Origin: Saprospirales bacterium
Lineage (GTDB): Bacteria > Bacteroidota > Bacteroidia > Chitinophagales > Saprospiraceae
DNA length: 64,000 nucleotides
Assembly (NCBI GenBank): GCA_002698985.1
Contig: PAAY01000013.1
Coordinates: 1 to 64,000, forward strand
Reading direction: 5' to 3'
The notes beneath the pieces are model-generated. The model saw nothing but the letters and a program-made list of their open reading frames with translations, ran no database searches and was not told the DNA's origin. Position 1 is the first letter of the stretch; every line of letters begins with the position of its first letter. A program made the position numbers and the translations under genes. Shown in pieces: positions 9,535 to 32,395 of the stretch.

Positions 9535-9560
9535 CCGATCCCGAAGGATTTCGGGATCGG
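9535..9560. repeat. Perfect palindrome of the CCCGAA..TTCGGG family
   Basis: Arms CCGATCCCGAA and TTCGGGATCGG, 11 bp each, with a ggat loop, just after the msrA stop codon (minus strand). Related palindromes occur at 24694, 27888, 35013, 41468 and 47701. Confidence 0.85.
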
Positions 9561-15705: not shown

Positions 15706-16680
15706 ATGTCCACTTACTCATCAAACAAACCGCAAAATCAGAACACGACGGCCATCATCGTCACCGTCGGAATTTTGTTGCTGGCCGCCATCGGATACCT
15801 CGCCTACAATTCCATTACCAAGGCACGTGCCCTGGAGCAGACCGTTTCGGAACTGGAAGAAAGCGAAAAACTGCGTGAAGAACTCGAAATGCAGTACAAT
15901 GCCGCACTGGCTGACCTGGAAGCTCAGAAAACGAGCAACGAAGAATTGAACGCACTGATCGATCAGCAAAAAGCCGAACTGGAGCAGCAAAAACGCCGCA
16001 TTTCCCAACTGATCGGTTCCAAGGATAAACTGGAAAAAGCACGCGTGGAGCTCAACAACCTGAAAGCACAGGTGAGCCAATACCTCGCTCAGATCGAAAA
16101 ACTGAAAGAGGAGAACGAAATGCTGGCCACCGAAAACGAGCAACTGGTGGAAGAGCGCACAAAATTATCCACTGACCTGCAGGCAAAAGCCGCTGAAAAC
16201 CAAGACCTCCAAAAAGTGAAGGCTCAACTGGCTTCAGAAAAGGAAGAACTGGCCAGCAAGGTGAGCATCGCATCCGTTGTGAAGATGCGGGAAGTGAAAG
16301 CCGTTGGACAAAAGGTGCGAAACAGCGGCAAAGTGAAAGATGAAGACAAAGCCAAGCGGGTGGATCAGATCAAAGTTTGCTTCACTGCACTTGACAACAA
16401 AGTGGTAAAGCCCGGGACTGAAACCTTCATTGTCAGAATCATCAATCCGCTTGGTGAAACACTTGCCGTGGAAGACATGGGCTCTGGGTTCTTCAAGGAC
16501 CTGGATAAAAACGACGAAATTCGTTTTACCATGATGAGCCAGATCGACTATGCAAATGAAGAGGTGCAGGAATGCCTGGTATGGGCGCCGGTAAACGCTT
16601 CTTTCATTGCAGGTGAATACACCGTAGAGGTGTACAACAAAGGCCATCTTGCCGGCAAAGGCAAGTTCAAGCTCAAGTAA
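15706..16680 (+). CDS. Membrane-anchored coiled-coil protein
   Basis: 324-aa protein of unknown function. One membrane segment near the N-terminus (about 15-35, TVGILLLAAIGYLAY) places the rest in the periplasm. A long coiled coil spans about 38-205 with heptads rich in Glu, Leu, Lys and Gln (e.g. ELEQQKRRISQLIGSKDKLE). The last ~105 residues form a compact beta-rich domain (KVCFTALDNKVVKPGTETFIVRIINPLG to KGHLAGKGKFKLK), reminiscent of an immunoglobulin-like fold. The same architecture recurs in Bacteroidota as envelope structural proteins, but no role is established. Single gene with its own terminator. Confidence 0.7.
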   Translation: MSTYSSNKPQNQNTTAIIVTVGILLLAAIGYLAYNSITKARALEQTVSELEESEKLREELEMQYNAALADLEAQKTSNEELNALIDQQKAELEQQKRRISQLIGSKDKLEKARVELNNLKAQVSQYLAQIEKLKEENEMLATENEQLVEERTKLSTDLQAKAAENQDLQKVKAQLASEKEELASKVSIASVVKMREVKAVGQKVRNSGKVKDEDKAKRVDQIKVCFTALDNKVVKPGTETFIVRIINPLGETLAVEDMGSGFFKDLDKNDEIRFTMMSQIDYANEEVQECLVWAPVNASFIAGEYTVEVYNKGHLAGKGKFKLK

Positions 16681-16703
16681 GTTTCTCTCTCATAAATGAC
16701 AAC

Positions 16704-16732
16704 AGGCGGCCCGGAACTGATCCGGACCGCCT
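16704..16732. terminator. Bidirectional hairpin terminator
   Basis: AGGCGGCCCGGA (16704-16715) pairs with TCCGGACCGCCT (16721-16732), 12 bp with one G-T wobble and a 5-nt loop, followed by ttgtcattt. It ends the coiled-coil gene. Confidence 0.8.
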
Positions 16733-16756
16733 TTGTCATTTAACCGAAAACCCTAT

Positions 16757-16860
16757 TATACTCAAAACGAAGTGGTTTGGGCGGCGAAGCCGGCCAAACT
16801 CCCACCTCCTACTGAAGTTTAGAGCTTGGGGTATTCCCAAACTACTTCGATTTGGGTATA
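16757..16860. repeat. MITE-like palindromic element, copy A
   Basis: 104-bp element bounded by imperfect ~25-bp inverted ends: left TATACTCAAAACGAAGTGG then TTTGGG, right the complement of TATACCCAAATCGAAGTAG then TTTGGG. An inner stem GTTTGG/CCAAAC encloses gcggcgaagccgg. The right end touches the stop codon of the secreted protease (16861). Related copies are at 24627-24754 and 32176-32277. Confidence 0.85.
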
Positions 16861-19560
16861 TCATCTAAGGATAACCAGTTTCTGGGTCAGACTTTCAGTA
16901 TCGTTTTTCATTTGCACGAAGTAATAGCCCGGGCGCAGGCTGCTGATGTCCAGCTTGTAGATTCCGCTTGGGTCCTCAACTTTTCTGATGAGGTGGACTT
17001 TGCCGGTCAGGTCGGTTACCAGCAGTTTGGCAGCAGTGCCGGTAGAGAGCTTGTAACCGATGCTTACTTCAGAGCTTGCCGGGTTGGGGAACAGCTTCAG
17101 GGTATTTTCTGAAAAATCCTCGATGTTCCAGGCCGGGGCGGTCTGAATGGCTGAGATGGCCTTGTCATCATCCCCGGTAGGATTGAGATTTGGTCCTGTG
17201 CTGCAGCCCGAGATGGAGATGTCATCCAGGTACACCCAGTCGGAGTTGCCGGAGGCATCGCAGCGGAAGCGCAGCTGAGTGGTTGCAGTGAACGGCCCGG
17301 CGATGATGACCGTGTCGTTGTAGCGTTGCAGGTTCACGAACTCGTCGTTCAGGTTCCATTCTTCCACGGTGGTGAAGGAGGCTCCGCCGTCCAGCGAGAT
17401 CTGGAGCCAGAAATCTTCATTGGAGTTGTCCATGCTTGCAGTGATGTAAGAGAATGCAACGGTCAGTTCCTCGTAATTGGACAGGTCCAGGTTATCCGTA
17501 GTGGTGGTTGAAGAGTTGGTGTTGTCGCGGAGGCGAACACTTCTCACCCCGGTGTTGGCATAGCTGCTGGAGCTGATCCGGCGGCAGTCAGAGCCTCCGT
17601 CGTTCCAGATGCCCCATCCACCTTCAAAACTCTCCGAGTTGATCAGTGAGTAAGTGCATCCGCCGCCACCACCTCCGCCGCCGGCAGGCAGGCAGAAGGG
17701 CGTTGCTTCGGAAAAGCCAAATGTGCCGCCACTGGCAAGGGTGGTTCCGGACAGGTCGTCAACCAGCGTGTATGAGCCATTGCCGTAGGAGCAGCAGATG
17801 CCGTCCCCGTACACATCAAAAATGGTGAAGGTGTAACAGCCGTCTGCCAGACAGATGTTTTCAGTTACGATGGCACCGTCGGCATAGCTGCCATAGGTTC
17901 CACCCGAGGAAGCCACGACGGTTCCGGCGTCATCGGTTATTTCCCAGCTCGTTTCTTCCGGATAATTGTCCAGCACGATGGTCAGGGTGAGGGCATTTTG
18001 CGAGCAGGGGGTTTGATCTTCTACGGTGTAACTTCCGGTGGCGGTACATCCGGCGTTGTCGGTCACGGTTACGTTGTATGTGCCAGGTGCAAGGCCGGAG
18101 ATCGAGGCGGTGGTGCCACCGTTGCTCCAGGTGTATGAATAGGGGCTTGTACCATTGCTGGGAGCGGCAGTTGCAGAACCATTGTTGCCATTGGTAGCGG
18201 GTGTGCCCGTTACCGAAACAGTCATGTTGCAGCCGGGTACGCAGGTGCTCAGGCAAGGTGCGTTGGTAATCTTGTTGCGGATGAGATCACCGGGCTGTGT
18301 GCCAAAACCGAGGTTGAAGTCGATGCCGACACCGCTTACCAGGTGGCAGTAGCTCATGATGGTTCCTTTGGCTGGTACGGTGGCGTTGCAACCTTCGCTG
18401 TAGCCGGCTGCCGGGCCGCAGCCATCGATGGCGGTGTTGTTGCCGTTCCAGGCGCAGGCGTGGGTGTGTGGTGAGCCGAGGTTGTGGCCCATCTCATGGG
18501 TGATCACTTCCACTGACCAGGAATATACCGGCACCTGCTGGTAGGTGCTGAAGATGTAGCTGTAACCGTAGGCATAAGTTGAACACAGCGCATCCAGCCA
18601 GGCCACACCGCCGTTGGCAGGAGCACCCCGGGAAACGAGGTGGGCAATGTCGCCATTGAAAGTAGGCCGTGCAGTGCGGAAAGCATTCAGTGCATCGATG
18701 GTGCTGGTGGTGGGATAGGAATCGGCCGTGTCCCAAACAAAGATTTCAGAGGCCTGCATGGTGATGGTCTCATTGGCATACAGGGCTGATACCATGTTGA
18801 ACAGGCCCGTCATGTAATTGACCGTGGCGGCCACAGAGCCGTTTTCGAGGAACATGTCGTAGTCGCATTCCAGGTAGGCAAACACGCAGTTTGCGACGCT
18901 TTTGTTGTTGCCACTGGTCTGGGGCTTGTACTTCTTCAAGTCCACCTTTTTCATGGCCGGGTGGTCGGTGTAGCACTCGAATTCGTTGATGGCCAGCATG
19001 TCTTTTTCACGGTAATAAACATAGACATCCTTTTTGCCTTCGAGCTTTCCGATGACCGATGGGCCGTCTTCTTCTGTACTCAGCATGCCCATGAGTTCAT
19101 CTTCGAAAAGGCTGATGGCAGCCAGTGAGTTGCTTTTCCCCCTGACGATGCCCCGGTAGTGGAGGCCGGGCTGGTAGGCTACGACATTGCCGTTTGCACC
19201 GGAGGTGCGAACGACGAAATCATCGGCGAGGGGTTCGGCCCGCACCAGGTCGATGAGGACCGGTGAACCGTTTGCCGAAGGAAGCTCCAGTGTGATGGCT
19301 TCGGGTTGGGCTTTGAAAGCGTTTTGCAATGTGGAAATTTTGAGATTGAGCAGGGTGGCTTCTGCCAGCTCACTTTTGACAGCCGGAAATTCGCTGACAT
19401 CACTTCGGTATTCAAATGGGCTGAATTGACTAAAGGAAAGTTCCTGTTGTGCTTGCTTCACTTTTAGCTCCAGCGGATTGAGCTGGTTTTGCGAAGCGAG
19501 TGGAAATGCAGTAATGAGAAGGCAGAGAAAGGCCAGAAGGCGCGAGTGGATGTTTGTCAT
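16861..19560 (-). CDS. Secreted reprolysin-like metallopeptidase with T9SS sorting domain
   Basis: 899-aa secreted zinc protease. A signal peptide (about 1-23) and a prodomain to about 210 precede the M12B-type catalytic domain (about 215-440) with HEMGHNLGSPH at 355-365 (zinc ligands His355, His359, His365; catalytic Glu356) and a downstream Met-turn GTIMSY. A SprB-type repeat follows (about 449-519, SYTWSNGGTTASISGLAPGTY). Next come a Cys-containing beta domain with FDVYGDGICCSYG, a Gly run, and a jelly-roll-like domain (about 650-785). The C-terminal ~80 residues (LKLFPNPASSEVSIGYKL to ESLTQKLVILR) are a type A T9SS sorting signal, so the enzyme should be exported by the same system as the PorW-like protein at 24812. 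Substrate unknown. Confidence 0.92.
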   Translation of the reverse strand: MTNIHSRLLAFLCLLITAFPLASQNQLNPLELKVKQAQQELSFSQFSPFEYRSDVSEFPAVKSELAEATLLNLKISTLQNAFKAQPEAITLELPSANGSPVLIDLVRAEPLADDFVVRTSGANGNVVAYQPGLHYRGIVRGKSNSLAAISLFEDELMGMLSTEEDGPSVIGKLEGKKDVYVYYREKDMLAINEFECYTDHPAMKKVDLKKYKPQTSGNNKSVANCVFAYLECDYDMFLENGSVAATVNYMTGLFNMVSALYANETITMQASEIFVWDTADSYPTTSTIDALNAFRTARPTFNGDIAHLVSRGAPANGGVAWLDALCSTYAYGYSYIFSTYQQVPVYSWSVEVITHEMGHNLGSPHTHACAWNGNNTAIDGCGPAAGYSEGCNATVPAKGTIMSYCHLVSGVGIDFNLGFGTQPGDLIRNKITNAPCLSTCVPGCNMTVSVTGTPATNGNNGSATAAPSNGTSPYSYTWSNGGTTASISGLAPGTYNVTVTDNAGCTATGSYTVEDQTPCSQNALTLTIVLDNYPEETSWEITDDAGTVVASSGGTYGSYADGAIVTENICLADGCYTFTIFDVYGDGICCSYGNGSYTLVDDLSGTTLASGGTFGFSEATPFCLPAGGGGGGGGCTYSLINSESFEGGWGIWNDGGSDCRRISSSSYANTGVRSVRLRDNTNSSTTTTDNLDLSNYEELTVAFSYITASMDNSNEDFWLQISLDGGASFTTVEEWNLNDEFVNLQRYNDTVIIAGPFTATTQLRFRCDASGNSDWVYLDDISISGCSTGPNLNPTGDDDKAISAIQTAPAWNIEDFSENTLKLFPNPASSEVSIGYKLSTGTAAKLLVTDLTGKVHLIRKVEDPSGIYKLDISSLRPGYYFVQMKNDTESLTQKLVILR

Positions 19561-19850
19561 TAGTTTTTGTTTTTGTGTTTAAAAAAAGCCTGTGGTTGCT
19601 TGCAACCTTGTTCGTTCAATTCATAGGATTAGCTGAAGCTCGTGTGGAGTGTTGTGGATGAGAAGGGAGGGCGGTGCAATTGGAATGCATCTAACAGACA
19701 CAAAGAAAGATGCCAAAGACGGCCGTTTTCTGGTGGTCATTCATCAAATTGTGACAGGGAAAGCGGCGGCGTGATCCAAATGACGGGTCATCCCATACGC
19801 TTTTGACCAGAAGAACTGACATTCGTGGCTGTTGAATTTACCCGACTGCC

Positions 19851-21089
19851 ATGATTGCCCGCACCATTTCCTTGTACAAAAAGTCCTTTGCCGGTTTGTC
19901 AAGACCGGTCTGGCTCTTGTCGCTGGTGATGTTCATCAACCGGAGCGGCACCATGGTGCTTCCATTTCTGACCATTTACCTCACCACCAAACTGGGCTTT
20001 TCGCTGGAGCAGGCCGGCTGGGCCATGACCGCCTTCGGGGTGGGATCGGTGGCGGGGTCTTTCCTCGGTGGGAAGCTGACCGACCGCTTTGGTTTTTACG
20101 AGGTGCAGTTCTGGACGCTGTTTTTGGGTGGCATCCTGTTCACCCTATTGCAGTTCATGAAAACCCCCATGGAGGTTTACCTGATGGTGCTTCTCATGAG
20201 CACGGTGGCGGAGGCCTTCCGCCCGGCAAGCATGACCTCGGTGGCAGCTTATTCCAAAGCCGAAAACCGGACCCGCTCCTTTTCGCTGTTGCGCCTGGCC
20301 ATCAACCTGGGCTGGTCGGCTGGGCCGGCGTTGGGGGGCTGGCTGGCCATGAAGTACGGCTACTTTACACTGTTTTATGTAGATGGGTTCACCTGCATTG
20401 CAGCGGCCCTGGTGTTCCGTGCGGTGCTGGCTCCAAAAAAGGTGGAGAAGATGGAAGCCGTGGAGGAGGAAGTTTCCGACGATGAAGGATTCGGCTCTCC
20501 CTGTAAAGACCGGCGCTACCTTTTCTTCCTGCTAATTACCTTGCTGGGGGCTGTGGCATTCATGCAGTTTTTATCCACACTGCCGGTGTTTTACAAACAG
20601 GAAATGTCATTGACCGAAGGGCAGATAGGACTGCTGATGGCCTACAACGGCCTTTTGATATTCATTCTGGAAATGCCCATCGTTTACCTGGCTGAGCGGC
20701 GCTTCAACCAGTTGGACACCATCATTTGGGGCACCATTCTTTACGCTGTTTCATACCTCGTTCTGGATTTGGGAGGGCTAATCCCCATCGTCATAGCCTT
20801 GATCTCGATGACGGCCATCACCTTCGGTGAAATTCTGAACATGCCATTTTCAAATTCTTATGCCCTCAACATGGCTCCGCCAAAGCAGCGGGGGCAATAC
20901 ATGGGCTTGTTCACCATGACATTTTCCCTGGGGCACATCCTGGCGCCGGCCATAGGCATGCAGGTAGCTGCACACTGGGGCTTCAGCACGCTGTGGTGGT
21001 TCCTCAGCGGTTTGTGTGTGCTTGCGGTACTTGGTTTGTGGTTTCTGAAAAAGTCGGAGCCTGCTACTCCTTCATCTTCAGCAGGTTGA
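19851..21089 (+). CDS. MFS transporter
   Basis: 412-aa major facilitator protein with about twelve membrane segments in two halves separated by a charged cytoplasmic loop (about 190-222, [18 protein letters not shown]). The first half shows [22 protein letters not shown] and [14 protein letters not shown], matching the loop 2-3 motif of drug/proton antiporter-like members, and the second half [19 protein letters not shown]. Related Bacteroidota proteins are annotated as multidrug or sugar efflux carriers; the substrate cannot be read here. Its last 26 bp overlap the convergent rfbA gene. Confidence 0.88.
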
Positions 21090-21933
21090 GGAGGTATTCT
21101 CCGTAACCGCTTTTGATGAACTTATGGCCGAGGCGCTCGAGCTGCTCGTCGTCGATGAAGCCCATTTCCCAGGCCACTTCCTCGATACAGCCGATCTTCA
21201 AGCCCTGCCTTTCTTCGATAACCTGGATGAACTGCCCCGCCTGCAACAATGAGGTGTGGGTTCCGGTATCCAGCCAGGCTACGCCCCGCCCGAGCACACC
21301 CACGTTGAGCCGGCCCATTTCGAGGTAGGTCTTGTTCACATCGGTAATCTCGTACTCACCGCGGGGGCTGGGTTTCAGGTTTTTGGCAATGTCCACCACC
21401 TGGTTGTCATAAAAGTAAAGCCCCGGCACCGCGTAGTTGGATTTGGGTTTGGCGGGTTTTTCCTCGATGGATATGGCCCTGAGGTCTTTGTCGAACTCCA
21501 CCACGCCGTAGCGTTCCGGATCGGCCACCTGGTAGGCGAAGATGACCCCGCCTTCCGGGTCGGCACTTTGCTGGAGCAGTTCCGGCAAGCCGGCCCCGTA
21601 GAAGATGTTGTCGCCGAGGATGAGCGCTGCAGCGTCGTTGCCGATGAAAGATTCGCCCAGCACAAAGGCTTGCGCCAGGCCATTGGGATCCGGTTGCGGA
21701 ACGTAAGAGAATGAGCAACCGATCTCGCTGCCGTCTTTCAACAGTTTTTCAAAATTGGGCAGGTCGTAAGGGGTGGAAATGATGAGTATTTCCCGGATGC
21801 CCGCCTGCATGAGGGTGGACAGGGGGTAATAGATCATCGGTTTGTCGTAAACGGGCATCAGCTGTTTGCTGACAGCCAGCGTCAAAGGGTAGAGGCGGGT
21901 GCCGAGCCCGCCCGCCAGAATGATTCCTTTCAT
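21064..21933 (-). CDS. rfbA: Glucose-1-phosphate thymidylyltransferase
   Basis: 289-aa RmlA enzyme making dTDP-glucose from glucose-1-phosphate and dTTP, the first step to dTDP-rhamnose and related sugars. The N-terminus [18 protein letters not shown] carries the nucleotide-binding GGxGTRL motif, followed by [17 protein letters not shown]. Central [14 protein letters not shown] holds the Mg-binding Asp, and later [20 protein letters not shown] and [17 protein letters not shown] are family signatures. Length is normal. rfbB, rfbC and rfbD are not adjacent, so the pathway genes are scattered. The 3' end overlaps the convergent MFS gene by 26 bp. Confidence 0.97.
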
Positions 21934-22069
21934 GAACGGAGTGTTGATGTTGATTCCCGGATTTTGCCGAAGGCGAAAATACAGGCCTGAAAGATAGCCA
22001 CTATATGGCGGTTTTTCACGTCACCCCGGCTCATGCAAAAGTCGTTCCCCAGCCGAATGCCACCGGCTG

Positions 22070-22456
22070 TTATTCCAGAACCGGGGCGGAGATGGATTTT
22101 GTCAGCTTCTGGATGCGAATGATCAGCTCATCCGGACGGTAGGGTTTGCCGATGAAATCACTGGCACCCAGCCGCAGGGCCTCGCGGATGAGGGCAACTT
22201 CGTCGAGCTGACTGCCGGCAATGATGGGGAATTCCGCACCTGCCTCGCGCCGGAGCATCTGGATGATGTCGAGTCCGGCGTAATCAGGCATGTGGAGGTC
22301 AACGATGGCCAGGTCGGGATAGCTGTGATTGAGCGCTTTTTTGGCGGCGGCTTCATCAGAGACGGACTTGAGAACCCATCCCACTTTTCTGAAGCGGAAG
22401 CTGAGGGTAGTCTGGAGCAGCGTTTCTTTCGTACACAACAAGATGGTCATAGGCAT
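22070..22456 (-). CDS. Stand-alone response-regulator receiver, atypical acidic pocket
   Basis: 128-aa single receiver domain (CheY-like) with no output domain. The phosphoacceptor position is Asp53 (LAIVDLHMPDYAG), the Ser/Thr switch is Ser82 (IIAGSQ) and the conserved Lys is Lys104 (GKPYRP). The N-terminal acidic pair that normally follows strand 1 is missing: the sequence is ILLCTKE, so Mg binding may be weakened and this may be a pseudo-receiver. A second ATG two codons in (22450) is an alternative start. No histidine kinase is adjacent. It lies between rfbA and the E1 gene, all on the minus strand, without obvious operon linkage. Confidence 0.85.
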   Translation of the reverse strand: MPMTILLCTKETLLQTTLSFRFRKVGWVLKSVSDEAAAKKALNHSYPDLAIVDLHMPDYAGLDIIQMLRREAGAEFPIIAGSQLDEVALIREALRLGASDFIGKPYRPDELIIRIQKLTKSISAPVLE

Positions 22457-22543
22457 TTCATGGTTGTTCCATCGCCTTGCGGCAATGGTGTTGTTTCGTT
22501 TTGGATAATGTTGGTATGACAGAAAAGCCTGTGTACGGAGAAA

Positions 22544-24547
22544 TCAGTAAAAGGTTATCTCTTTTAATTTTCGTCGGAAACGCTCCACGGGCATGAAGTT
22601 CTTTTCGAGGACGGGTGCAAAAGGCACGGGTGTATCCAGTGATGCGGCCCGGGCCACAGGGGCATCCAGGTATTCAAAGAGGTTTTCGGAAATGTACGCT
22701 GCAATCTCAGCACCAAAGCCGCTGGTCAGCGTGGCTTCGTGCAGCACAATGGCTTTGTTGGTTTTTTTAACGGTGTCTGCAATGGCCTCCCGGTCGTAAG
22801 GCAGCAGGGTGCGCAGGTCCAGGATTTCGGCGTCGATGCCTTCTTCTTCGCAAACTTTTAGTGCCCAATGGACGCCCATGCCGTAAGTGATGACGCTGAC
22901 ATCAGCTCCCTGGCGCACCACCTTTGCTTTGCCGATTTCTTCGGTGTAAAATCCTTCCGGCACTTCGCCGCTGATACTGCGGTAAAGGGCCTTGTGCTCA
23001 AAAAACATCACGGGGTTGGGGTCTTCAAAACTTGCCAGCAGCAGGCCTTTGGCATCGTGGCTGTTGGAGGGGTACACCACCTTGAGGCCCGGCGTATGGG
23101 TGAACCAGGCTTCGGTGGTTTGTGAGTGGAAAGGCCCGGCAGCTACGCCACCGCCACAGGGCATCCGCACCACCACATCGGCATTGGCGCCCCAGCGGTA
23201 GTGGATCTTTGCCAGGTTGTTCACGATCTGGTTGAAACCCACGCTGACGAAGTCGGCAAACTGCATTTCCACCATGGCTTTGTAGCCCTTCAGGCTTAGT
23301 CCCAGCGCTGCACCGATGATGGCGCTTTCGCAAAGCGGGGTGTTGCGCACCCGCTCCCTGCCAAATTTATTGACAAAGCCCTCGGTAATTTTGAAAACGC
23401 CGCCGTATTCGGCAATGTCCTGGCCCATGAGCACCAGCTTGTCGTGGCGCTGCATGGCTGTGCGCAGGCCGTCGGAAATGGCATCCACGAAACGCAGCTC
23501 TTTTTTACCCGCTCCGGAGGCCGGGGCAACTGCCTTGTTTTCCGAAGGTGCATACACGTCTGCCAGTTCCGCAGCTTCATCGGGCTGGGGCTCAGGCTGT
23601 GCTTCCGTTTCTTTCCAGGCAGCATTGATGCGGTCTTTGAGTTCTTTCCGGATGGCCTCTGACTTTTCCTTCGTCAAAATTCCTTCGGACAGCAGGAAGT
23701 TCTCGTAGTTCACCACCGGGTCTTTCTGAGCCCAGGTCTCCAGCAGCTCTTTCGGAACGTACTTCACACCGCTGGCCTCCTCGTGGCCCCGCATCCGGAA
23801 GGTTTTGCACTCCACCAGTACCGGCTCCGGCTTTTCTCTCAGTTCTTCGGCAAGCTGGCTGATGGCCTGATAAACTTCGAGAATGTTGTTGCCATCCAGG
23901 ATGACCGAGCGCATTCCGTAACCCTTTGCCCGGTCTGCAATGTGCTCACAACGAAACTGCTCCGACACCGGAGTGGACAATCCGTAACCGTTGTTTTCGA
24001 CGATGAAAATGACAGGCAGTTCCCGGACGGCGGCCACGTTCAGCGCTTCGTGGAAATCGCCTTCGCTGGTGCCGCCCTCGCCGGTGAAGGCCACGCTTAC
24101 CTTTTTTTCTTCGGAAAGTTTGTGGGCCAGGGCCACACCGTCGGCCAGTGCAAGTTGCGGACCCAGGTGGCTGATCATTCCCACGATGTGGTAATCCAGC
24201 GCACCGAAGTGAAAGGAGCGGTCCCGGCCTTTGGTGAAGCCGGTCAGCTTGCCCTGCCATTGGCTGAACAGCCGAACCAGGGGCATCTCACGGGTGGTGA
24301 ACACCCCCAAATTGCGGTGCATGGGAAAGATGATCTCGTCCGGCTCCAGGGCGCTGGTCACCCCCACTGCGATGGCCTCCTGCCCGATGCCGGAAAACCA
24401 TTTTGAGATCTTGCCCTGCCGAAGCAGGATGAGCATTTTTTCCTCGATCAGGCGGGGCAGCAGAATGCGCTCGTAAAGCGACATTAGCTGGTCATTGCTG
24501 AGTTTGCCTATTTTGAATTCCATCGGCTGAGCAGGTGTGGTAAGCAT
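22544..24547 (-). CDS. Fused alpha/beta E1 component of a 2-oxoacid dehydrogenase
   Basis: 667-aa thiamine-diphosphate enzyme with E1-alpha (about 10-325) and E1-beta (about 345-667) in one chain, a fusion usual in Bacteroidota. The TPP motif GEGGTSEGDFHEALN to ENNGYG spans 156-188, and the beta part has VLMGQDIAEYGGVFKIT and NTPLCESAIIGAALG-like signatures and VLHEATLTSGFG near the C-terminus. A short Pro/Glu/Ala-rich linker joins the halves. It likely decarboxylates branched-chain 2-oxoacids (or pyruvate) and passes acyl groups to an E2 encoded elsewhere. The start at 24547 or the Met nine codons later are both possible. Confidence 0.92.
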   Translation of the reverse strand: MLTTPAQPMEFKIGKLSNDQLMSLYERILLPRLIEEKMLILLRQGKISKWFSGIGQEAIAVGVTSALEPDEIIFPMHRNLGVFTTREMPLVRLFSQWQGKLTGFTKGRDRSFHFGALDYHIVGMISHLGPQLALADGVALAHKLSEEKKVSVAFTGEGGTSEGDFHEALNVAAVRELPVIFIVENNGYGLSTPVSEQFRCEHIADRAKGYGMRSVILDGNNILEVYQAISQLAEELREKPEPVLVECKTFRMRGHEEASGVKYVPKELLETWAQKDPVVNYENFLLSEGILTKEKSEAIRKELKDRINAAWKETEAQPEPQPDEAAELADVYAPSENKAVAPASGAGKKELRFVDAISDGLRTAMQRHDKLVLMGQDIAEYGGVFKITEGFVNKFGRERVRNTPLCESAIIGAALGLSLKGYKAMVEMQFADFVSVGFNQIVNNLAKIHYRWGANADVVVRMPCGGGVAAGPFHSQTTEAWFTHTPGLKVVYPSNSHDAKGLLLASFEDPNPVMFFEHKALYRSISGEVPEGFYTEEIGKAKVVRQGADVSVITYGMGVHWALKVCEEEGIDAEILDLRTLLPYDREAIADTVKKTNKAIVLHEATLTSGFGAEIAAYISENLFEYLDAPVARAASLDTPVPFAPVLEKNFMPVERFRRKLKEITFY

Positions 24548-24626
24548 GGGAGAAATTTGGTTTTATTCTGACCGGCAAAAGTAGTCCTTCGCCTTTCAAT
24601 AACCACTTTTTTGAAGACTGACAATC

Positions 24627-24754
24627 TATACCCAAGTCGAAGTAGTTTGGGAAAGCCCCAGCCTTAAACTTCAGTAGGGGTTGGGAGTTAGGTCCCGATC
24701 CCGAAGGATTTCGGGATTCGGGATCGCCGCCCTAACCACTTCGTTTTGAGTATA
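24627..24754. repeat. MITE-like palindromic element, copy B (with inserted palindrome)
   Basis: 128 bp, inverted relative to copies A and C. Ends: TATACCCAAGTCGAAGTAG then TTTGGG on the left, and the complement of TATACTCAAAACGAAGTGG on the right. The inner stem reads GTTAGG/CCTAAC instead of GTTTGG/CCAAAC, a compensatory pair change. Its loop has been enlarged by a CCCGAA-type palindrome (24694-24720). It lies between the PorW-like gene and the E1 gene. Confidence 0.85.
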
Positions 24755-24759
24755 CAAAC

Positions 24760-24792
24760 ACGAACGCCGGCAGTTGGGCTGCCGGCGTTCGT
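24760..24792. terminator. Terminator after the PorW-like gene
   Basis: ACGAACGCCGGCAG (24760-24773) pairs perfectly with CTGCCGGCGTTCGT (24779-24792) over a 5-nt loop. On the minus strand it is followed by gtttgtat. It starts 20 bp after the stop of the lipoprotein gene. Confidence 0.85.
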
Positions 24793-24811
24793 TCACCTGT
24801 TGGAGAATCCT

Positions 24812-27772
24812 TTACTGAAGGTAGTGCAATTGGAAGAAAGTTTTGTATTCCTCCACTTGTTTGGTCTTCAGCAATTCCCGGTAATTGTCCTGACAGATGG
24901 GCAGGAGGTCGTAGCTGTATTTTCCTTCATCCAGAAAGTCCGCTTTGTTTTTCAATACCGTGTCGTAATAAGTCATGGCATCGTCCCGGTTTTTAAAGCG
25001 GCGGATGGCGACGATCGGCAATTTGCTTTCCCCGTTGTCGAGGTAGATGTTGTTCATGCGCAGCTTCTGCAGCTTGAAGAACTTGCTATTGAAATCCGAG
25101 ATTGCAATTTTGGCATCGTTGAGTGACACATCGTGGTTGAAGACGACGACCACGTAGTGCTGCTGCGTGTCATTGGGCTTGTAATTGCCAATTTGGCCTT
25201 CCTCGGCCGGCAGGTTTCGCTCCTGGCCGGGGCCGCTGGCCACCTTCTCGCCCAAGAGGCGGAGTATCTCCCGGGCCCTGGCGGCTTCTGGTTCTTCCGG
25301 ATATTTGGCCAGGATTTCCTTCAATGCTTCCACATAGGCATCCCTTCCCTGGAGGTTGCCGAGGCACATGGCACCGATCAGGGCAAAACGGGGTTGCAAG
25401 CTGTTGGTAGCGCCAAACTGTTCGCCCACTTTCTTGACCCGCTCATAAGCCTCACTGTATTGGCGGGCAACGAATTTTGCATAGGTCTCGTCGTAATAGC
25501 GGGTCAGCTTGTTGGCCTCTTCATTCACCTGGTTGGCAAAGTTGGGGTCCTTCAGCAGCTTCGCATAACGGGTTTCCGGATAGCCATTCACGATCTTGTC
25601 GTAATACAGTTGCGCATTCTGTTCGTCACCCAGGTCTTTGTAGCACAGGTGCATGTAGTACATGGCATCCAGGATGTACTGCGTTTGCGGATATCGATTC
25701 AGCAGCGTCTGGAAGGTCTCGATGGCTTTCTCGTAATTCTGCAGTTTATCGCGGTAGAGTGTTCCAAGTTTGAACAAGGCCGACTCGATCTGGCGGTGAG
25801 CCGCTGCCAGTTCCTTATCGTTTTTCGGAACATCTTTGAAAATCTCATCGACCTCTTCCTGTGTCAGCGCTGCGGGTTGGATGGCTGCCCCTCCGATGCT
25901 TTCTTCAAGCTCAGCGAAGGATTGGCGGTTGGAGCGTCGCCAGTCGTCTTCCAGCACCCGGTTGCCCCATTTGCGTTGGAATTCACGTTTGCCGTTTTTC
26001 ACTTGCCGGTCGTCGTAGGCCCAGAAATTTGATTTGGAGCCGGGCTGGAAGGCAGGGCCGGTGGGGCCTTGTGTGTTTTTCTTGGCCTGTTGATTGGCTT
26101 TGGCTTTCAGTTCCGCCAGTCGCTTTTCTTCCCGTTCTTTTTTGATCCGGGCGGCCAGATCTCTTTTCTCCTCGTCGGAAAGACGGCTGAGGCTTATGAG
26201 GCTATCCTGCAGGGCAATGGTTTGAATGCTTTCGGCAATGCCTTCCAGGTTGGCAGCGATGTTGTTCACCCTGCCGTAGCGCTCATCTGTCACCGTCATC
26301 ACTGTCAGGGTGCTGTCGTAGTACAGCTTGGCCTGAACGAAATCCTGGTCTTCAAAAAACAGATCGGCCATCAGCAGGTAGGCTTCTGCCTTTTGGGAGC
26401 GGTTGCTGGTGCTGTTGTCCAGTGACTTGCGCAAGTACTGGCGTGTGGCCACTTTGTCGCCCTTGTTGAGGGCTATCTGAGCCAGAGCAAAATAGATCTG
26501 GTCCCTGAACTCTTTGTTCTTTTCTTCTTTGAGCATCCGCTCCAGTTGTTTCACGGACTCCTCTTCGGAATTGACTCCGGCGGTGGCCAGGTTCAGCCGG
26601 GCGCTGAATTCCATTTCGTAATTCGGACGGTATTTCAGCACTTGTTCAAAAGCGGCATAGGCATCGCTGCCCCGGCCGGCCATCTGATGGATTTGCCCCA
26701 GGATGAAGGCCAGGCGGGCTTTGCGCTGGTTGTCTTTCACCTGTGCAATGGCACTCTCCAGGGCCGGCACAGCCTGGTCGTACTTTTTCTGACGAATGTA
26801 AAAATGGGCCTTGGCGACCATCGCCTCAGCACGTACATCAGGATAGGTGGAGCCGCTGCTTTCGAGTTGTTTCAACAGGCGTTCGGCCTGGGCGTAATTC
26901 TCCCGCTCGATGTAGGTGCGGGCCAGCCACAGCACGGCCTCCTGGTACACCGGCCGGTGTTTGATGATGTACTTTTCGGGATCGCCTTCGGGAATGATGG
27001 GTTTCACATCGCCCAGCCGGATGGAACCCGGTGCAGGGCGGTGCCTGGTGGTGTCGGCAGGTTCTTCGGTTTCACCGGCATCCACGATGGTGGTTTCTTC
27101 TTTCGGTTCTTCTTTGGGTTTTCTGGGTGGAGCCTTGCCACCCTTCTTTCTGGCCTTTTTGATTTCCTTGTTGCGCTGTTTGCGCTCCTTCTCACGCTCT
27201 CTTTGTTTCTGTTTGGCCAGCTTTATTCGCTGTTTCTTGCTCAGTTGTTTGACGGCCTCTTTGTCGGTGTTCTCGCCTCTCTTGGCGGCCTTTTTCAATC
27301 GCTTTCCCGATTTGGTTTTGGCTTCTCTTGCCGCCACCTCGGTCGGGTGGAATTCGGCGGTCATGAATTCAAAAGTCTCCTCAGCCGATTCGTATTCCTG
27401 TTTCAGGAACTGCGCTTTTCCGAAGATGAGGTAGCAGTCGTCGGTCCATTGGCTCACCCGGTGCAGGTTCACCACCACGGAGACTTTTTCCATGGCCAGG
27501 TCGAGGTCTTCGGCTACGGCTTTGGGGTTGGAGGCTTCCACATAGGGGTAAATGGCCAGCAGTTGGCTGTAGTTGTCCAGGTGTTGCTGTTCCAGTTGCA
27601 GAATGCTTTCCTGAATGAGCAGGTCGGCGTTGTAATAGCCGTTGTAGCGGGCCGTGGTATTGTGGTAAACCTTGCCCAACTTGCTGACTTCGTCCTTTTT
27701 CTTTTGGGTGACGCAGCCGGCAATGACAAGTGAACAAAGGGCAAAACACAGAAGGGTGTTGATATATCTCAT
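24812..27772 (-). CDS. porW: PorW/SprE-like TPR lipoprotein (type IX secretion / gliding)
   Basis: Large lipoprotein, 986 aa from the ATG at 27772. The signal MRYINTLLCFALCSLVIAGC ends in a lipobox Cys at residue 20. Next comes YHNTTARYNGYYNADLLIQESI, characteristic of the PorW/SprE family. A Lys/Arg-rich stretch (about 150-230) is followed by many TPR-like helices (about 270-880). The C-terminal ~110 residues repeat a small alpha/beta motif (HYVVVVFNHDVSLNDAKIAISDFNSKF and LPIVAIRRFKNRDDAMTYY). Known PorW/SprE links T9SS ring and motor parts and is needed for secretion of CTD proteins. The two T9SS cargo proteins in this window agree with that. Family call is good; symbol is by similarity. 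Confidence 0.82.
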   Translation of the reverse strand: MRYINTLLCFALCSLVIAGCVTQKKKDEVSKLGKVYHNTTARYNGYYNADLLIQESILQLEQQHLDNYSQLLAIYPYVEASNPKAVAEDLDLAMEKVSVVVNLHRVSQWTDDCYLIFGKAQFLKQEYESAEETFEFMTAEFHPTEVAAREAKTKSGKRLKKAAKRGENTDKEAVKQLSKKQRIKLAKQKQREREKERKQRNKEIKKARKKGGKAPPRKPKEEPKEETTIVDAGETEEPADTTRHRPAPGSIRLGDVKPIIPEGDPEKYIIKHRPVYQEAVLWLARTYIERENYAQAERLLKQLESSGSTYPDVRAEAMVAKAHFYIRQKKYDQAVPALESAIAQVKDNQRKARLAFILGQIHQMAGRGSDAYAAFEQVLKYRPNYEMEFSARLNLATAGVNSEEESVKQLERMLKEEKNKEFRDQIYFALAQIALNKGDKVATRQYLRKSLDNSTSNRSQKAEAYLLMADLFFEDQDFVQAKLYYDSTLTVMTVTDERYGRVNNIAANLEGIAESIQTIALQDSLISLSRLSDEEKRDLAARIKKEREEKRLAELKAKANQQAKKNTQGPTGPAFQPGSKSNFWAYDDRQVKNGKREFQRKWGNRVLEDDWRRSNRQSFAELEESIGGAAIQPAALTQEEVDEIFKDVPKNDKELAAAHRQIESALFKLGTLYRDKLQNYEKAIETFQTLLNRYPQTQYILDAMYYMHLCYKDLGDEQNAQLYYDKIVNGYPETRYAKLLKDPNFANQVNEEANKLTRYYDETYAKFVARQYSEAYERVKKVGEQFGATNSLQPRFALIGAMCLGNLQGRDAYVEALKEILAKYPEEPEAARAREILRLLGEKVASGPGQERNLPAEEGQIGNYKPNDTQQHYVVVVFNHDVSLNDAKIAISDFNSKFFKLQKLRMNNIYLDNGESKLPIVAIRRFKNRDDAMTYYDTVLKNKADFLDEGKYSYDLLPICQDNYRELLKTKQVEEYKTFFQLHYLQ

Positions 27773-27887
27773 GTTGAACATGTTTCTAATCGCAATTGGA
27801 AAAAATGCTTTTCGGGCAAGTGGCGAGCGGGTTATGGTTTTTCAGGTTTCTGCTGGTTAGTTCAGTTCCTCAGTTCTTCAGTTCCTC

Positions 27888-27905
27888 CCCCGAAAGCTTT
27901 CGGGG
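27888..27905. repeat. Perfect 18-bp palindrome
   Basis: CCCCGAAAG directly followed by CTTTCGGGG, no loop. It lies in the 260-bp divergent intergenic region between the PorW-like gene and the M23 peptidase and is flanked by cagttcctcagttcttcagttcctc-type short repeats. Same family as 9535, 35013 and 47701. Confidence 0.85.
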
Positions 27906-28033
27906 TTCGATTCCTCAGTTTAATTCCGAATTTTACGGGGCGAACCAAAAGGGGTTTCAAAACCTGCTTTTCTTGCCGCCCACTCAACTAAAAGGGCCGC
28001 AAATTTATTTTGTTCGCATCAAACGATAACGAC

Positions 28034-28924
28034 ATGACAGAGGAAAAGAAGCAAGGCAGCAGGTGGGAACGGCTCAAAGACAACTACCGCCTGGTGGTGA
28101 TGAACAAAGATACCTTTGAAGAAGTGGGGGCTTACAACCTCTCTCTCCTCAATGTTTACATCCTTATCAGCTCTGTGGTGGTGCTGGTAGCGATACTGGT
28201 ATGGCTGGCTTTTGCCTTCACCCCACTGGCCCGCCTCCTGCCCAACAACCATACCGTGGATCACGAAACCCTGGTCAAACTATATCAGGACCTGGACTCT
28301 CTGGAACAACTCACTGAGGCCCAGGCCACCTACAATGAATCTTTCCGCCGCATGCTCACCGGAGAAGTCCAGTACGAGCCGGAAGGAGAGGTGCCGACCA
28401 CGCCCAACCTCGATTCCGTTTTCGAAGAAATTCCCATTTCCGAAGAAGAGCAGGAATTGCGAAGAGAATTTGAAATCCAAAACGGAACCGCCCAGGCGCT
28501 CGACCAGTCAGGTGTTCCGGTCAACATTTCTCCGCGTGACAAGCCGCTGGAGCAGATGTATTTCAGTCCGCCCATCAGCGGCACCATCACCGCCAATTTC
28601 AACAAAGACGAAAACCACCTCGGCGTCGATGTCGTAGCGCCTAAAAACACCCCCATCAAAGCAGCCCTCGATGGTTGGATCATCTTTTCAGACTGGACGC
28701 TGGAAACCGGCAACACCATCGCCATCCAGCACGCCAACAACATCGTGACCTTTTACAAACACAATTCCTCGCTGCTGAAAAAAACCGGCAGCTTCGTCCG
28801 GGCCGGAGAGGCCATCGCCATCATCGGCAATACCGGTGAACTCTCCGATGGACCCCATCTCCACTTTGAACTGTGGCACGAAGGCAAACCCGTCAACCCC
28901 ACGGATTTTGTGGATTTCAAGTGA
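28034..28924 (+). CDS. Membrane-anchored M23 family endopeptidase
   Basis: 296-aa protein from the ATG at 28034 (a TTG eight codons upstream is the alternative). One membrane segment lies at about 38-62 (LNVYILISSVVVLVAILVWL), so the C-terminal part is periplasmic. An acidic, partly helical linker precedes the LytM domain (about 175-296), which has intact zinc motifs HLGVD (195-199) and HLHFELW (275-281). Such enzymes cut peptide cross-links in peptidoglycan or activate amidases. Many Bacteroidota encode a closely similar protein of this size. Downstream is the tandem repeat array. Confidence 0.92.
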   Translation: MTEEKKQGSRWERLKDNYRLVVMNKDTFEEVGAYNLSLLNVYILISSVVVLVAILVWLAFAFTPLARLLPNNHTVDHETLVKLYQDLDSLEQLTEAQATYNESFRRMLTGEVQYEPEGEVPTTPNLDSVFEEIPISEEEQELRREFEIQNGTAQALDQSGVPVNISPRDKPLEQMYFSPPISGTITANFNKDENHLGVDVVAPKNTPIKAALDGWIIFSDWTLETGNTIAIQHANNIVTFYKHNSSLLKKTGSFVRAGEAIAIIGNTGELSDGPHLHFELWHEGKPVNPTDFVDFK

Positions 28925-28970
28925 GGAGAAATGTATGGTATGAGGAATCGAAGAATCGAGGAATCGAGCG

Positions 28971-29552
28971 AGCTAGCGCCCCAAACCCTACTCTCTACTC
29001 CCTACTCCCTACTCTTTTTAACCACGGAGTTGCACAGCGTTTTGACACGGAGTTCCACGGAGGAATATTACCTAGCGCCCCCAAACCCTACACTCTAAAC
29101 CCTACACCCTAAACCTTTTAACCACAGAGTTGAACAGAGTAATTTCACGGAGTTCCACAGAGGATAATGAGCTAGCGCCCCCAAACCCTACTCTCTACTC
29201 CCTACTCCCTACTCTTATTAGCCACGGAGTTGCACAGAGTTTTGACACGGAGTTCCACGGAGGAATATGAGCTAGCCCCTCCAAACCCTACTCTCTACTC
29301 CCTACTCTTATTAGCCACGGAGTTGCACAGAGTTTTGACACGGAGTTCCACAGAGGATAATGAGCTAGCACCCCCAAACCCTACTCTCTACTCCCTACTC
29401 CCTACTCTTATTAGCCACGGAGTTGCACAGAGTTTTTACACGGAGTTCCACGGAGGAATATGAGCTAGTGCCCCCAAACCCTAAACCAGGGATGAGGGAT
29501 GAGGGATAAATGAAGAGCTAGCCCCCCAAACCCTACACCCTACACCCTAAAC
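28971..29552. repeat. Tandem array of ~100-bp units
   Basis: Five to six direct copies begin near 28971, 29071, 29170, 29270, 29363 and 29463, plus a short last one near 29516. Each unit has (1) a gctagc word, (2) a CCCAAACCCTAC / TACTCCC microsatellite, and (3) a doubled CACGGAGTTnCACrGAG segment. Unit spacing is 93-100 bp. No open frame is conserved across copies. A single related copy lies at 39659. Confidence 0.9.
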
Positions 29553-29553
29553 T

Positions 29554-30495
29554 CTAAACTCTCCTCCACACCTTCCTTACCTGATAGGGTCTTTTCTGCT
29601 GTGATTCGTAATAGGTGCGCATCTGGATTTCCACCACGATGCCGATGGTGATGAACTGGATGCCGCCGATGACCAGCATGAGGCCGAGCAGCAGCAGGGG
29701 TTTGCCCCAGATGTCATGGCCGAGCAGCTTGAGCCAGCCGAGGTAGAGGTTGATGATGGCGCCGATGGTGAACAGCACGATGCCGATGCCGCCAAAGAGG
29801 TGCATGGGGCGGCGCAGGTAGCGTTTGAAGAAGAGCATCAGCAGCAGGTCGCTGATGACTTTGATGGTGCGGCCCATGCCGTATTTCGACTGACCGAATT
29901 GGCGGGGGTGGTGCTGTACGGGCACCTGGGTGATGCGGGCTCCTTCCAAAACGGCCAGCACCGGGATGAATCGGTGCAACTCACCGTAGAGACCCAGATC
30001 CCGGGCAATATCCGTTCTGATGATCTTGAGCGCACAGCCGTAATCCCGGAGCTTGACACCGGAGCTCTGACGGATGATCCAGTTGGCGATGAGGCTGGGA
30101 ATTTTCCGAAGGAAAAAATCGTCTTTGCGGTTGGTACGCTCACCGGCCACCATGTCCCAGTCACCTTCTTCGGCAAGTTTGAGCATTTCCGGAATGTCAG
30201 CAGGGTCGTTTTGCAGATCGCCGTCCAGGGTGGCAATCCACTCACCGGAGGCGTGATCGATGCCGGCCATCAGTGCCAGGCTCTGTCCGTAGTTCTTTCG
30301 GAGTTCTATGATCTTCAGCCGCTCGTCGGAGAGGCTCTTCAGTTTTTTCAGGGTTCCGTCGGTGGAGCCGTCGTCAACGAAGATGAGCTCGTAGTCAATG
30401 CCCTGCAGTGCAACGGCGACGCGTTGGCACATCGGCAGGATGTTGTCCTCCTCATTCAGCACGGCGATGACCACAGAGAGTTTGGGTTGGCTCAT
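29554..30495 (-). CDS. GT2 glycosyltransferase, polyisoprenyl-phosphate sugar synthase type
   Basis: 313-aa GT-A enzyme of the GtrB/ArnC/DPM1 group. LSVVIAVLNEEDNI (residues 6-19), ELIFVDDGSTDGT (36-48) and TLDGDLQNDP (89-98, metal-binding Asp91/Asp93) are clear. KLRDYGCALKIIRTDIARDL follows, and two C-terminal membrane segments (about 230-290) anchor it. Known members load a sugar onto undecaprenyl phosphate. Its ATG overlaps the TGA of the upstream GT-C gene (ATGA), so the two are translationally coupled: this enzyme probably makes the lipid-linked donor used by that one. Its own stop codon (TAG) lies inside the flanking CCCTAAACTCTAA-type repeat. Confidence 0.92.
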   Translation of the reverse strand: MSQPKLSVVIAVLNEEDNILPMCQRVAVALQGIDYELIFVDDGSTDGTLKKLKSLSDERLKIIELRKNYGQSLALMAGIDHASGEWIATLDGDLQNDPADIPEMLKLAEEGDWDMVAGERTNRKDDFFLRKIPSLIANWIIRQSSGVKLRDYGCALKIIRTDIARDLGLYGELHRFIPVLAVLEGARITQVPVQHHPRQFGQSKYGMGRTIKVISDLLLMLFFKRYLRRPMHLFGGIGIVLFTIGAIINLYLGWLKLLGHDIWGKPLLLLGLMLVIGGIQFITIGIVVEIQMRTYYESQQKRPYQVRKVWRRV

Positions 30496-32183
30496 TTGCT
30501 GTCGTTTTGTTGCGCCTTGTTGCGCTGGTGCCAGTGCAAAAAGGTGCTGTTGATGCGGCCCAGCACCAGGTCGCGGCACTCCCACCGGATTTTGAAGGTG
30601 GTGAGGGTGTCGTAGGTATTGGGCGGGTAGGTCATGGGGTTGATGATGTAAAGGGCGCTGGTGTCAAAGTTTTCAAATTTTACGGAAAGGGGCTGCTTTG
30701 TTTCACGGGCGAAGTAATACCCGGTGGCCGGTTGCAGTCCCAGGCTGTATTCCAGGGCATAAACGGGCTTTCTTCCGGTCAATTTTGCGGCAGCGATGGT
30801 TTCTTCCCGCATCACGGTGGCGCACATCACCCGGTTTCGTTCCGGAATGAGAAAGAGGTCGTAGCCCAGGCGCACCAGCAGCATGATTGCGACGAAATAA
30901 AAAAGCCGGGCCTTTTGCATGCGCCAGCCCAGAAGGCCCAGGGCCGCCAGTCCCGCCGTCAGCAATGCGGTTTTAAGGTAAAAGTGAGGTATTGCTTTCA
31001 GCGGTTCCCAAAACAGGGGGGCAAGCCCTGCTCCGATGGCCAGCAGGCACAGCAGGCCAAAAGCCTTGTTGACCGCCGAATGAATGCGCTGCCCCCGGTG
31101 CTGGTAATGCAAGTAAAACAGCACCGTGTAAACCGCTGGCACCAACATGAGCAGGTAGCGCGGGTACACCTCCACCGACAACCAGTAAGGTACGATGTTG
31201 ATGCCCACCACCAGGGCGTTCCAGAAGATGAAATCGTTTTGGCGGAGGAACTGCCAGCCTTTTTTCCGAAGGAGATAAACCGCCAATAGGGTCCAGGGCA
31301 AAAAGTGGAAGAGGAACTCAAAAGGAAAGCTGAAAAAGTGCAGCACCGTGTCGCCAATGCCGTATTGCATCGGGGTGCGTTTGGCCGACTCGTTGAAGAG
31401 GGTGCTGAAAACCTGATCCAGTCCGTTGTATTGCGAATAGGCCCAATAGTAAGCAGCCATTGGGACGATGAAAAAAAGCGAACCCATAAGGTGGGCTGCA
31501 CTGAACACTCGCTTCCATTGCCGCTGCAATATGAGCCAGGCGGCCATGCTCAGCCCGAGAAAAACGATAGCCGGCAGGCCTTTCAGTAAAAAGCCGATGG
31601 CCGTGAGCGCATACGCTCCGGCAAAGAACCAGCCCCAGCGCTGCCGCCGGCCGGTGAAAAACAGCCACATGAACAGGCAGTAAATGACCAACGAAAAGCT
31701 GGTGTCGATGAGGGCCAGCATGGAATCCCAGAACAGCACCCGGCCGCAGGTGAGGAAGGCCAGCGCCGGCAGCCAGTCCCAGCCGGTGGGCCAGTTGTTT
31801 TGCGCTGCTGTTTTCCGAAGGGCCTGCCACAGGGTCAGGCGAATGAGGTACACGAACAGCAGCAGGGCGATCACCGTGGTCAGCCGGGCGGTGAACTCTG
31901 ACTGATCACCGGTGAGCTGGAAGAAGGCGGCCAGCAGCCAGTTGTACAGCGGCGGCTTGTTGTAGTAATACTCCCCGAAAAGCGTGGGTACGATGTAGTT
32001 GCCGCTGTGCTCCATCTCCAGCGCCACCAGCGTGCGGATGCCCTCGTCGTCGGTCAAGGGGGCCATGCCCAGGTTGAGCAAAAAGGCGGGCAGGGCCAGC
32101 AAGCCTATGAGCAGTGCCGCCAGGGTGATCGGATCGCTATGTCGGAAAATGCTGTTCTGCAAAAGGGTTTTTGTTGTACTCAT
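30492..32183 (-). CDS. GT-C (GT39/GT83, ArnT-like) membrane glycosyltransferase
   Basis: 563-aa integral membrane glycosyltransferase with about 11-12 hydrophobic segments. The first loop contains the acidic motif of the superfamily (MAPLTDDEGIRTLVALEM, about 33-50), followed by GEYYYNKPPLYNWLLAAFFQL, the conserved YxKPPL motif. These enzymes move sugars from polyprenyl-phosphate donors to lipid A, proteins or glycans on the outer face. The downstream GT2 gene overlaps by 4 bp and likely makes the donor. The ATG at 32183 is chosen because conserved sequence begins there; the start lies at the edge of MITE-like copy C, which covers its upstream region. Acceptor unknown. Confidence 0.9.
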   Translation of the reverse strand: MSTTKTLLQNSIFRHSDPITLAALLIGLLALPAFLLNLGMAPLTDDEGIRTLVALEMEHSGNYIVPTLFGEYYYNKPPLYNWLLAAFFQLTGDQSEFTARLTTVIALLLFVYLIRLTLWQALRKTAAQNNWPTGWDWLPALAFLTCGRVLFWDSMLALIDTSFSLVIYCLFMWLFFTGRRQRWGWFFAGAYALTAIGFLLKGLPAIVFLGLSMAAWLILQRQWKRVFSAAHLMGSLFFIVPMAAYYWAYSQYNGLDQVFSTLFNESAKRTPMQYGIGDTVLHFFSFPFEFLFHFLPWTLLAVYLLRKKGWQFLRQNDFIFWNALVVGINIVPYWLSVEVYPRYLLMLVPAVYTVLFYLHYQHRGQRIHSAVNKAFGLLCLLAIGAGLAPLFWEPLKAIPHFYLKTALLTAGLAALGLLGWRMQKARLFYFVAIMLLVRLGYDLFLIPERNRVMCATVMREETIAAAKLTGRKPVYALEYSLGLQPATGYYFARETKQPLSVKFENFDTSALYIINPMTYPPNTYDTLTTFKIRWECRDLVLGRINSTFLHWHQRNKAQQNDSK

Positions 32184-32277
32184 AACGAAGTGGTTTGGGC
32201 GGCAAAGCCGACCAAACTCCCAACCCCTGCTGAAGTTTAAAGCTGGGATTTTCCCAAAAAACTTCTTCTTGGGTATA
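32176..32277. repeat. MITE-like palindromic element, copy C
   Basis: About 102 bp. Left end TGTACTCATAACGAAGTGG then TTTGGG, right end the complement of TATACCCAAGAAGAAGTTT. Inner stem GTTTGG/CCAAAC as in copy A. It lies between the divergent GT-C gene and PBP gene, and its left end contains the GT-C start codon (cat at 32181-32183). Confidence 0.85.
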
Positions 32278-32395
32278 AAAGGGGTAAAGTTAGGGGGAGG
32301 TAACTTTCTTTCCATTGCAAACCTATTACAAGAAATTTGCACTTCCAGCGTTTGGCCTGTGCCATCACCTAAGTTCAAAGCGGCATCAAAACACT

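Follow-up and report, generated by a model that had tools for sequence, protein, structure and literature searches.

The window analysed here, 64,000 nucleotides of contig PAAY01000013.1 from a Saprospirales bacterium (genome G000), contains three copies of a short palindromic element. The first-pass annotation had attributed to them common ends, a middle word and an inner stem, and all three were found with these parts at the following positions:

16757..16758, no strand: left TA of copy A (target duplication)
16759..16858, plus strand: copy A, a putative MITE of 100 bp, composed of the left TIR TACTCAAAACGAAGTGG, hairpin 1 from 16775 (GTTTGG...CCAAAC), the middle word CTACTGAAGTTTA and the right TIR CTACTTCGATTTGGGTA
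16859..16860, no strand: right TA of copy A; directly after it, minus-strand ORF 16861-19560 has its TGA stop
24627..24628, no strand: TA of copy B (target duplication)
24629..24752, minus strand: copy B, a putative MITE of 124 bp with a GTTAGG/CCTAAC inner stem and a nested CCCGAATCCCGAAATCCTTCGGGATCGGG palindrome
24753..24754, no strand: TA of copy B (target duplication)
32177..32275, plus strand: copy C, a putative MITE of 99 bp whose left outer dinucleotide is TG, not TA
32276..32277, no strand: right TA of copy C

The window copies, 99 to 124 bp long, start with TACTCAAAACGAAGTGG (TACTCATAACGAAGTGG in copy C), end with GGGTA and are bordered by TA, except on the left of copy C, where it has been lost. 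According to the ORF list they stand in convergent, tandem and divergent gene arrangements. Two contacts with coding sequence noted earlier are correct: copy A abuts a stop codon, and the left end of copy C contains an ATG (32183-32181) in frame with a minus-strand ORF. A changed base in the left end (TACTCAT) creates this ATG; in the sister species G003, the orthologue has no element and no Met in the matching stretch. It is possible that copy C provides a borrowed start codon to the minus-strand ORF.

The three window copies are part of a dispersed family. With the 104-bp copy A as blastn query, the own assembly (4.83 Mb, 102 contigs) gave at least 45 matches among 40 scored of 79 candidates, the best at 1.3e-48, a recurrence that is not due to chance, and among 60 relatives three genomes gave matches, all congeneric. 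A covariance model built on 40 copies, applied to 150 candidates per genome so that counts are possibly low, recognised at least 64 copies in G000, at least 126 in G003 (JALWSS01, a Saprospiraceae MAG of the sister species) and at least 2 in G010, and found 0 among the 150 candidates scored in each of the other 11 of the 14 genomes of the genus. Further copies in the genome and in relatives, which the first-pass annotation had proposed to look for, are thus abundant, with a patchy distribution (3/14 genomes). A search for the 17-bp end, allowing up to 2 mismatches, gives 65 places in G000 and 134 in G003, versus 1 and 0 for its reversed control; in 12 other congeners it gives 0-4, about equal to the control (0-3). 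The exact 22-bp form of the end is present in four MAGs, JALWSS01, DROJ01 (G010), WFYJ01 and CALLVY01, the last three having a different interior behind it.

Removal of 4 rows with wrong boundaries from an initial 85, and addition of 1 real copy, left a cleaned set of 82 copies from G000 and G003. They measure 58 to 161 bp, mostly about 100 bp, and carry no transposase gene, in agreement with the first description of the element as MITE-like and protein-free. Their left end is nearly invariant and their right end variable. Hairpin 1 (GTTTGG...CCAAAC) lies directly inside the left end and has a core of many forms: GGCGAAGCC, TTGGCGTACGCCAA, GTGCGGCGTACGCCGCAC or nested CCCGA...TCGGG palindromes. 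The middle part is of at least three types (CTACTGAAGTTTA; CATCTTCTCTGGAATGAAGAG; ATCCACACTTGACGTGAGTGATGGAT), each of which could, judged by eye, form a second small hairpin. The third was read in G003 only, bar one similar copy of G000, and each species therefore seems to have amplified its own subfamily. The second palindrome that had been seen in the loop of one window copy is of a common type, present in 25/82 cleaned copies when defined by at least one CCCG, at least one CGGG and a length of at least 104. Its arms hold 1 to 5 repeat units, mostly of different unit lengths in the two arms (6 and 7 nt), and in 22 of the 25 the raw count gives as many CCCG as CGGG units, from 1:1 up to 5:5; the 3 unequal cases have, by eye, CCTG units or a CGGG counted outside the hairpin. 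Free-standing TCCCGAA...TTCGGGA palindromes that resemble the nested one are found at 9537-9558 and 47701-47718 of the window and are maybe a separate small repeat.

TA is found at both sides in 67 of the 80 copies having both flanks and not at both sides in the other 13 (left 72/82, right 75/80). Flanks vary between copies and the boundaries stay at TA. Segmental duplication or recombination, which the first-pass annotation had named, next to a lack of further copies, as what would speak against its proposal, could account for a few copies standing close together (e.g., G003:C110 41568 and 41685); the differing flanks contradict this origin and orthologous empty sites exist, which makes it close to negligible. 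Such sites, whose search had also been proposed, were looked for by comparing 17 orthologous positions of G000 and G003. One is letter-perfect (L007/L197: AAATGT-TA-GTATTGG versus the filled AAATGT-TA[element]TA-GTATTGG) and keeps exactly one TA; copy B is missing at its orthologous G003 site, where 2 bp (TG) are left; and two more (L004, L005) are compatible with an empty state with extra changes. Hence 4/17 sites are readable as empty, one of them letter-perfect. Elsewhere the comparison was ambiguous (L017, L087), met diverged spacers (nine sites) or ran off the contig (one). For copies A and C, the orthologous G003 spacers are too diverged or replaced to read; that of copy C is also filled by TAGGG/CCCTA-rich runs. 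The orthologous site L012/L189 is filled in both species by different subfamilies, either because each inserted independently into the same TA or because an old copy was converted.

For 11/79 copies the restored insertion site lies within an open frame of 150 aa or longer, versus 241/305 control positions 700-900 bp away; the element is therefore mostly between genes. This location, a strong fold and the ATG of copy C, which could serve a gene, would suit a host regulatory or terminator element that is repetitive by chance. Such an element is very improbable given the three different gene arrangements in the window, the empty orthologous sites, the presence in few genomes of the genus, and an Rfam search of window positions 15000-34000 that gave 0 matches above gathering score.

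The candidate mobiliser was found through an end match at G000:C3:37320, about 120 bp behind a DDE_3 hit. The two belong to a decayed IS of 1,109 bp (G000:C3 = L092:929-2037; DDE_3 2.2e-26) with TA at both sides, ends TACTCATAGCGATTTGATTTGGGAG and TACTCAAACCGAAGTGGTTTGGGC and a split transposase frame, whose open piece is assigned to the IS630 family (NF033545, 1.6e-35). Over 24 bp, the end TACTCAAACCGAAGTGGTTTGGGC and the left end of the MITE differ by one mismatch. The other end matches worse, the MITE right end and the IS left end differing at several positions. Relatives of this transposase are found in 21/298 genomes of the family, own included (E 1e-20 or better). Intact ones with 63-70% amino acid identity are present in three genomes of two other genera, G308, G097 and G275, with IS ends TATACCCTTCACGAATTGGTTTGGGC, TATACCCGTCCCTAAGTGGTTTGGGC and TATACGCATCACGAAGAGGTTTGGGA, respectively, that are equivalent to the MITE ends. 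The closest intact relatives have one end in ..TTTGGGA and the other in ..TTTGGGC; G275 has ..TTTGGGA at both. No relative of the L092 transposase piece was found among the named genome contigs. The draft assembly of G003 gave no DDE_3 hit and no relative at 1e-20, and its draft state may or may not be the cause of the missing IS. Two other candidates were set aside: the remaining DDE_3 genes of the genus (L137, L139-L145) have no matching ends within 7/22 mismatches, and in G003 the frames between paired ends that could have bounded a complete IS (L077, L078) contain no recognised transposase, each paired end belonging to a separate MITE.

The first-pass annotation had foreseen an IS or RAYT-type transposase with matching ends; the IS part of this expectation stood, with an IS630-family member in G000, and the RAYT part did not. 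RAYT, a Y1 tyrosine transposase, would move the element as a REPIN. This origin would explain the tetranucleotides at the hairpin foot in both arms (in many copies of alignment A1, which holds the 40/82 copies of 96-102 bp and leaves out nested palindromes, GTGG precedes hairpin 1 and GTAG stands in the right arm), and G000 does have one Y1_Tnp gene. The same GTAG/GTGG tetranucleotide, however, belongs to the IS630 ends themselves, the TA duplication and the end match fit a DDE transposase, and no element end (up to 4 mismatches) occurs in the 2.5-kb locus around the sole Y1_Tnp gene found in G000. We regard a REPIN origin as highly improbable. Behind this Y1_Tnp (IS200/RAYT-like) gene (L046, G000:C58) stand two repeated palindrome blocks, GGCGGCC/GGCCGCC, that have no relation to the MITE.

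A parallel case comes from another genus. G097, a one-contig genome, has 7 full-length transposase matches, and a search pattern based on its own IS end hits 52 places, including IS copies and a 159-bp MITE. The ends of the latter, TACCCGGCACTAAGTGG and TACCCGTTACTAAGTGG, match the G097 IS locally; MITE ends thus follow the local IS, with CTAAGTGG in G097 and CGAAGTGG in G000. The 159-bp element is present also in G251 and in at least one copy in G308. G275 and G019, whose own ends were not used as pattern or are different, had 0 matches to the G097 pattern. Two G097 end pairs (C1:1605173-1605364 and 4229636-4229858) have spacings of 192 and 223 bp in place of 159; this MITE therefore has length variants too.

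The dispersed copies, TA flanks, empty site, near-equal IS ends and equivalent pairs in another genus lead us to consider the family an IS630-type MITE, a short non-autonomous DNA transposon very probably moved by an IS630-family transposase. We hold with high confidence that its inverted ends of about 25 bp are bound by such a transposase (Tc1/mariner-like DDE), which would act in trans and insert the element into TA, duplicating this dinucleotide, mostly between genes. The interior is modular and largely made of palindromes, which are replaced or become longer on both arms together. Movement is attributed, from the ends, to a transposase of the L092 type, probably by cut and paste. Against this mobiliser stands the fact that G000 has a single decayed IS and that none was found in G003, which has about twice as many MITEs. 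We infer that little movement of the family occurs here at present, given that the only matching IS found in G000 is broken and that the search in the sister species yielded none.

An internal deletion of the IS as the origin of the MITE is a lead and no more than suggested. In copies of the first subfamily the middle word matches the 3' coding end of the G275 transposase, with CTGAAGTTTAAAG in common and an equal distance to the end. When only this collinear place is considered, 6/42 copies score at least 24 versus 1/4000 shuffles, the copies not being independent, and 18 other places of the IS score at most 22. Scored along the entire IS, copies and shuffles have the same maximum (28), and 11/82 related copies reach at least 24 versus 16/410 shuffles. 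No match was seen in the other subfamilies.

The inner stem reads GTTAGG/CCTAAC in the copy at 24.6 kb and GTTTGG/CCAAAC in the other two, a paired change that is real and recurs in copy C46:40395. In the outer stem and hairpin 1 of alignment A1, 19 cells are changed on two sides versus a mean of 6.9 in shuffles, which leave the relatedness of the copies in place (0/500); hairpin 1 contributes four of the changed pairs and the outer stem one. Neither the count of changed pairs (5 versus 3.2; 39/500 shuffles) nor that of further pair types (106/500) is exceptional. Because 16/19 two-side-changed cells come from one subfamily and two adjacent pairs, we count roughly four independent double-change events, GTTAGG/CCTAAC among them. 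The signal is stronger in the 159-bp family: in six hand-picked sequences from G097, G251 and G308, 12/61 pairs are two-side changed, including 9/15 in the inner stem (0/500 shuffles, again with relatedness left in). The compensatory base pair is therefore part of a wider pattern, in which the inner hairpin tends to keep its fold while the letters change. The TIR stem extended into the left arm of hairpin 1 shows no covariation beyond shuffling, which suggests that the ends are conserved for protein binding and not for folding.

The first-pass annotation had taken the paired change to imply selection on, or replication through, the folded structure. This is not established, since the TIR stem does not covary, the inner stem covaries by some measures only and some copies have lost the hairpin. 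Selection would act on a cruciform or single-strand hairpin that aids transposition, or on an RNA stem in read-through transcripts, and would be an addition to the MITE reading, not an alternative to it; the compensatory changes would then be true selective covariation. The excess of two-side changes in both families points that way, as do folding z-scores of -5.0 to -10.4 (four elements) and the equal unit numbers in most nested palindromes. We nevertheless find such selection unlikely. Beyond the subfamily bias and the absence of an Rfam match, RNAalifold's own consensus is a long stem with neither hairpin 1 nor a double change, and columns 23/36 of A1 form no standard pair in 13/40 copies, eight of them read by us as G-G. 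By a strict rule 17/82 copies have no matching right arm, although four of these keep, by eye, a mismatched or end-to-end arm. Three of the 17, hairpin-less and at separate loci of the two species, have a nearly identical junction, and such elements therefore apparently still spread. Template switching between palindrome arms, a described mutational source of double changes that creates and mends palindromes in one step, gives the same pattern without selection (PMC8794818). Since it does so and some copies have no hairpin, the compensatory pair does not prove selection. We favour as most economical that the pair would arise by template switching between the arms, possibly with weak selection for a foldable element.

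Both the 100-bp and the 159-bp family have a covarying inner stem in unrelated interiors. A broader idea, to which we give only a small chance, is that MITEs of this IS630 group would need an internal hairpin as an exchangeable structural part, with the fold and not the letters being inherited and selected. If true, the hairpin might, for example, help the transposase by drawing the two ends of so short an element close to each other. The palindromic cores of about 190 copies from two sister genomes form a data set to separate fold selection from template-switch mutation, a general problem in the interpretation of compensatory changes.

Among described repeats, the closest in kind is RUP of Streptococcus pneumoniae, reported as 107 bp long, in 108 copies and with IS630-Spn1 as proposed mover (PMC2229807, PMC3049150). 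Likened by description, it resembles the present family in length, copy number, intergenic location, TA target, ends matching a resident IS630-family IS and lack of protein; it belongs to another phylum, and the swappable, covarying inner stem and the decayed resident IS are features of the present family. The latter would accordingly be a further member of a kind already known. Nezha of cyanobacteria, an ISNpu3-like MITE also likened by description, shares the proposal of an IS mover through end similarity and differs in host (PMC3049150). The Correia/NEMIS elements of Neisseria are described in 107- and 155-bp forms that differ by an internal insert, with proposed stem-loop transcripts; two size forms and TA at the termini are common features (PMC2229807), whereas in the present family, again compared by description, differences in size mainly reflect palindromes nested in the hairpin loop. 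REPIN/RAYT systems with GTAG REPs have, as described, palindromes with a GTAG/GTGG foot and complementary stem variants (PMC3733652); the present family differs in its candidate IS630 partner instead of a tyrosine transposase, its TA duplication and its IS-type inverted ends. What the family contributes is an IS630/MITE pair documented in Bacteroidota, family Saprospiraceae, in which MITE ends track the local transposase from genus to genus and interiors are exchanged.

Some composite structures were also observed. A 58-bp element of G003 (L079:2008-2065, G003:C15:10107-10164) consists of the left end and its mirror image and lies beside a fragment of another MITE end. A similar composite is found in two species (L272 of DROJ01, G010, 3109-3165, and L256:3232), where a short palindromic element with the TACTCAAAACGAAGTGG end is joined to a second element starting with TATGCCGAT. 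Positions 28960-29567 of the window contain imperfect tandem repeats of about 100 bp (by eye), with CCCTA-rich runs alternating with CCACGGAGTTGCACAGAG; similar stretches occur at no fewer than 15 other places in G000 and at least 7 in G003.
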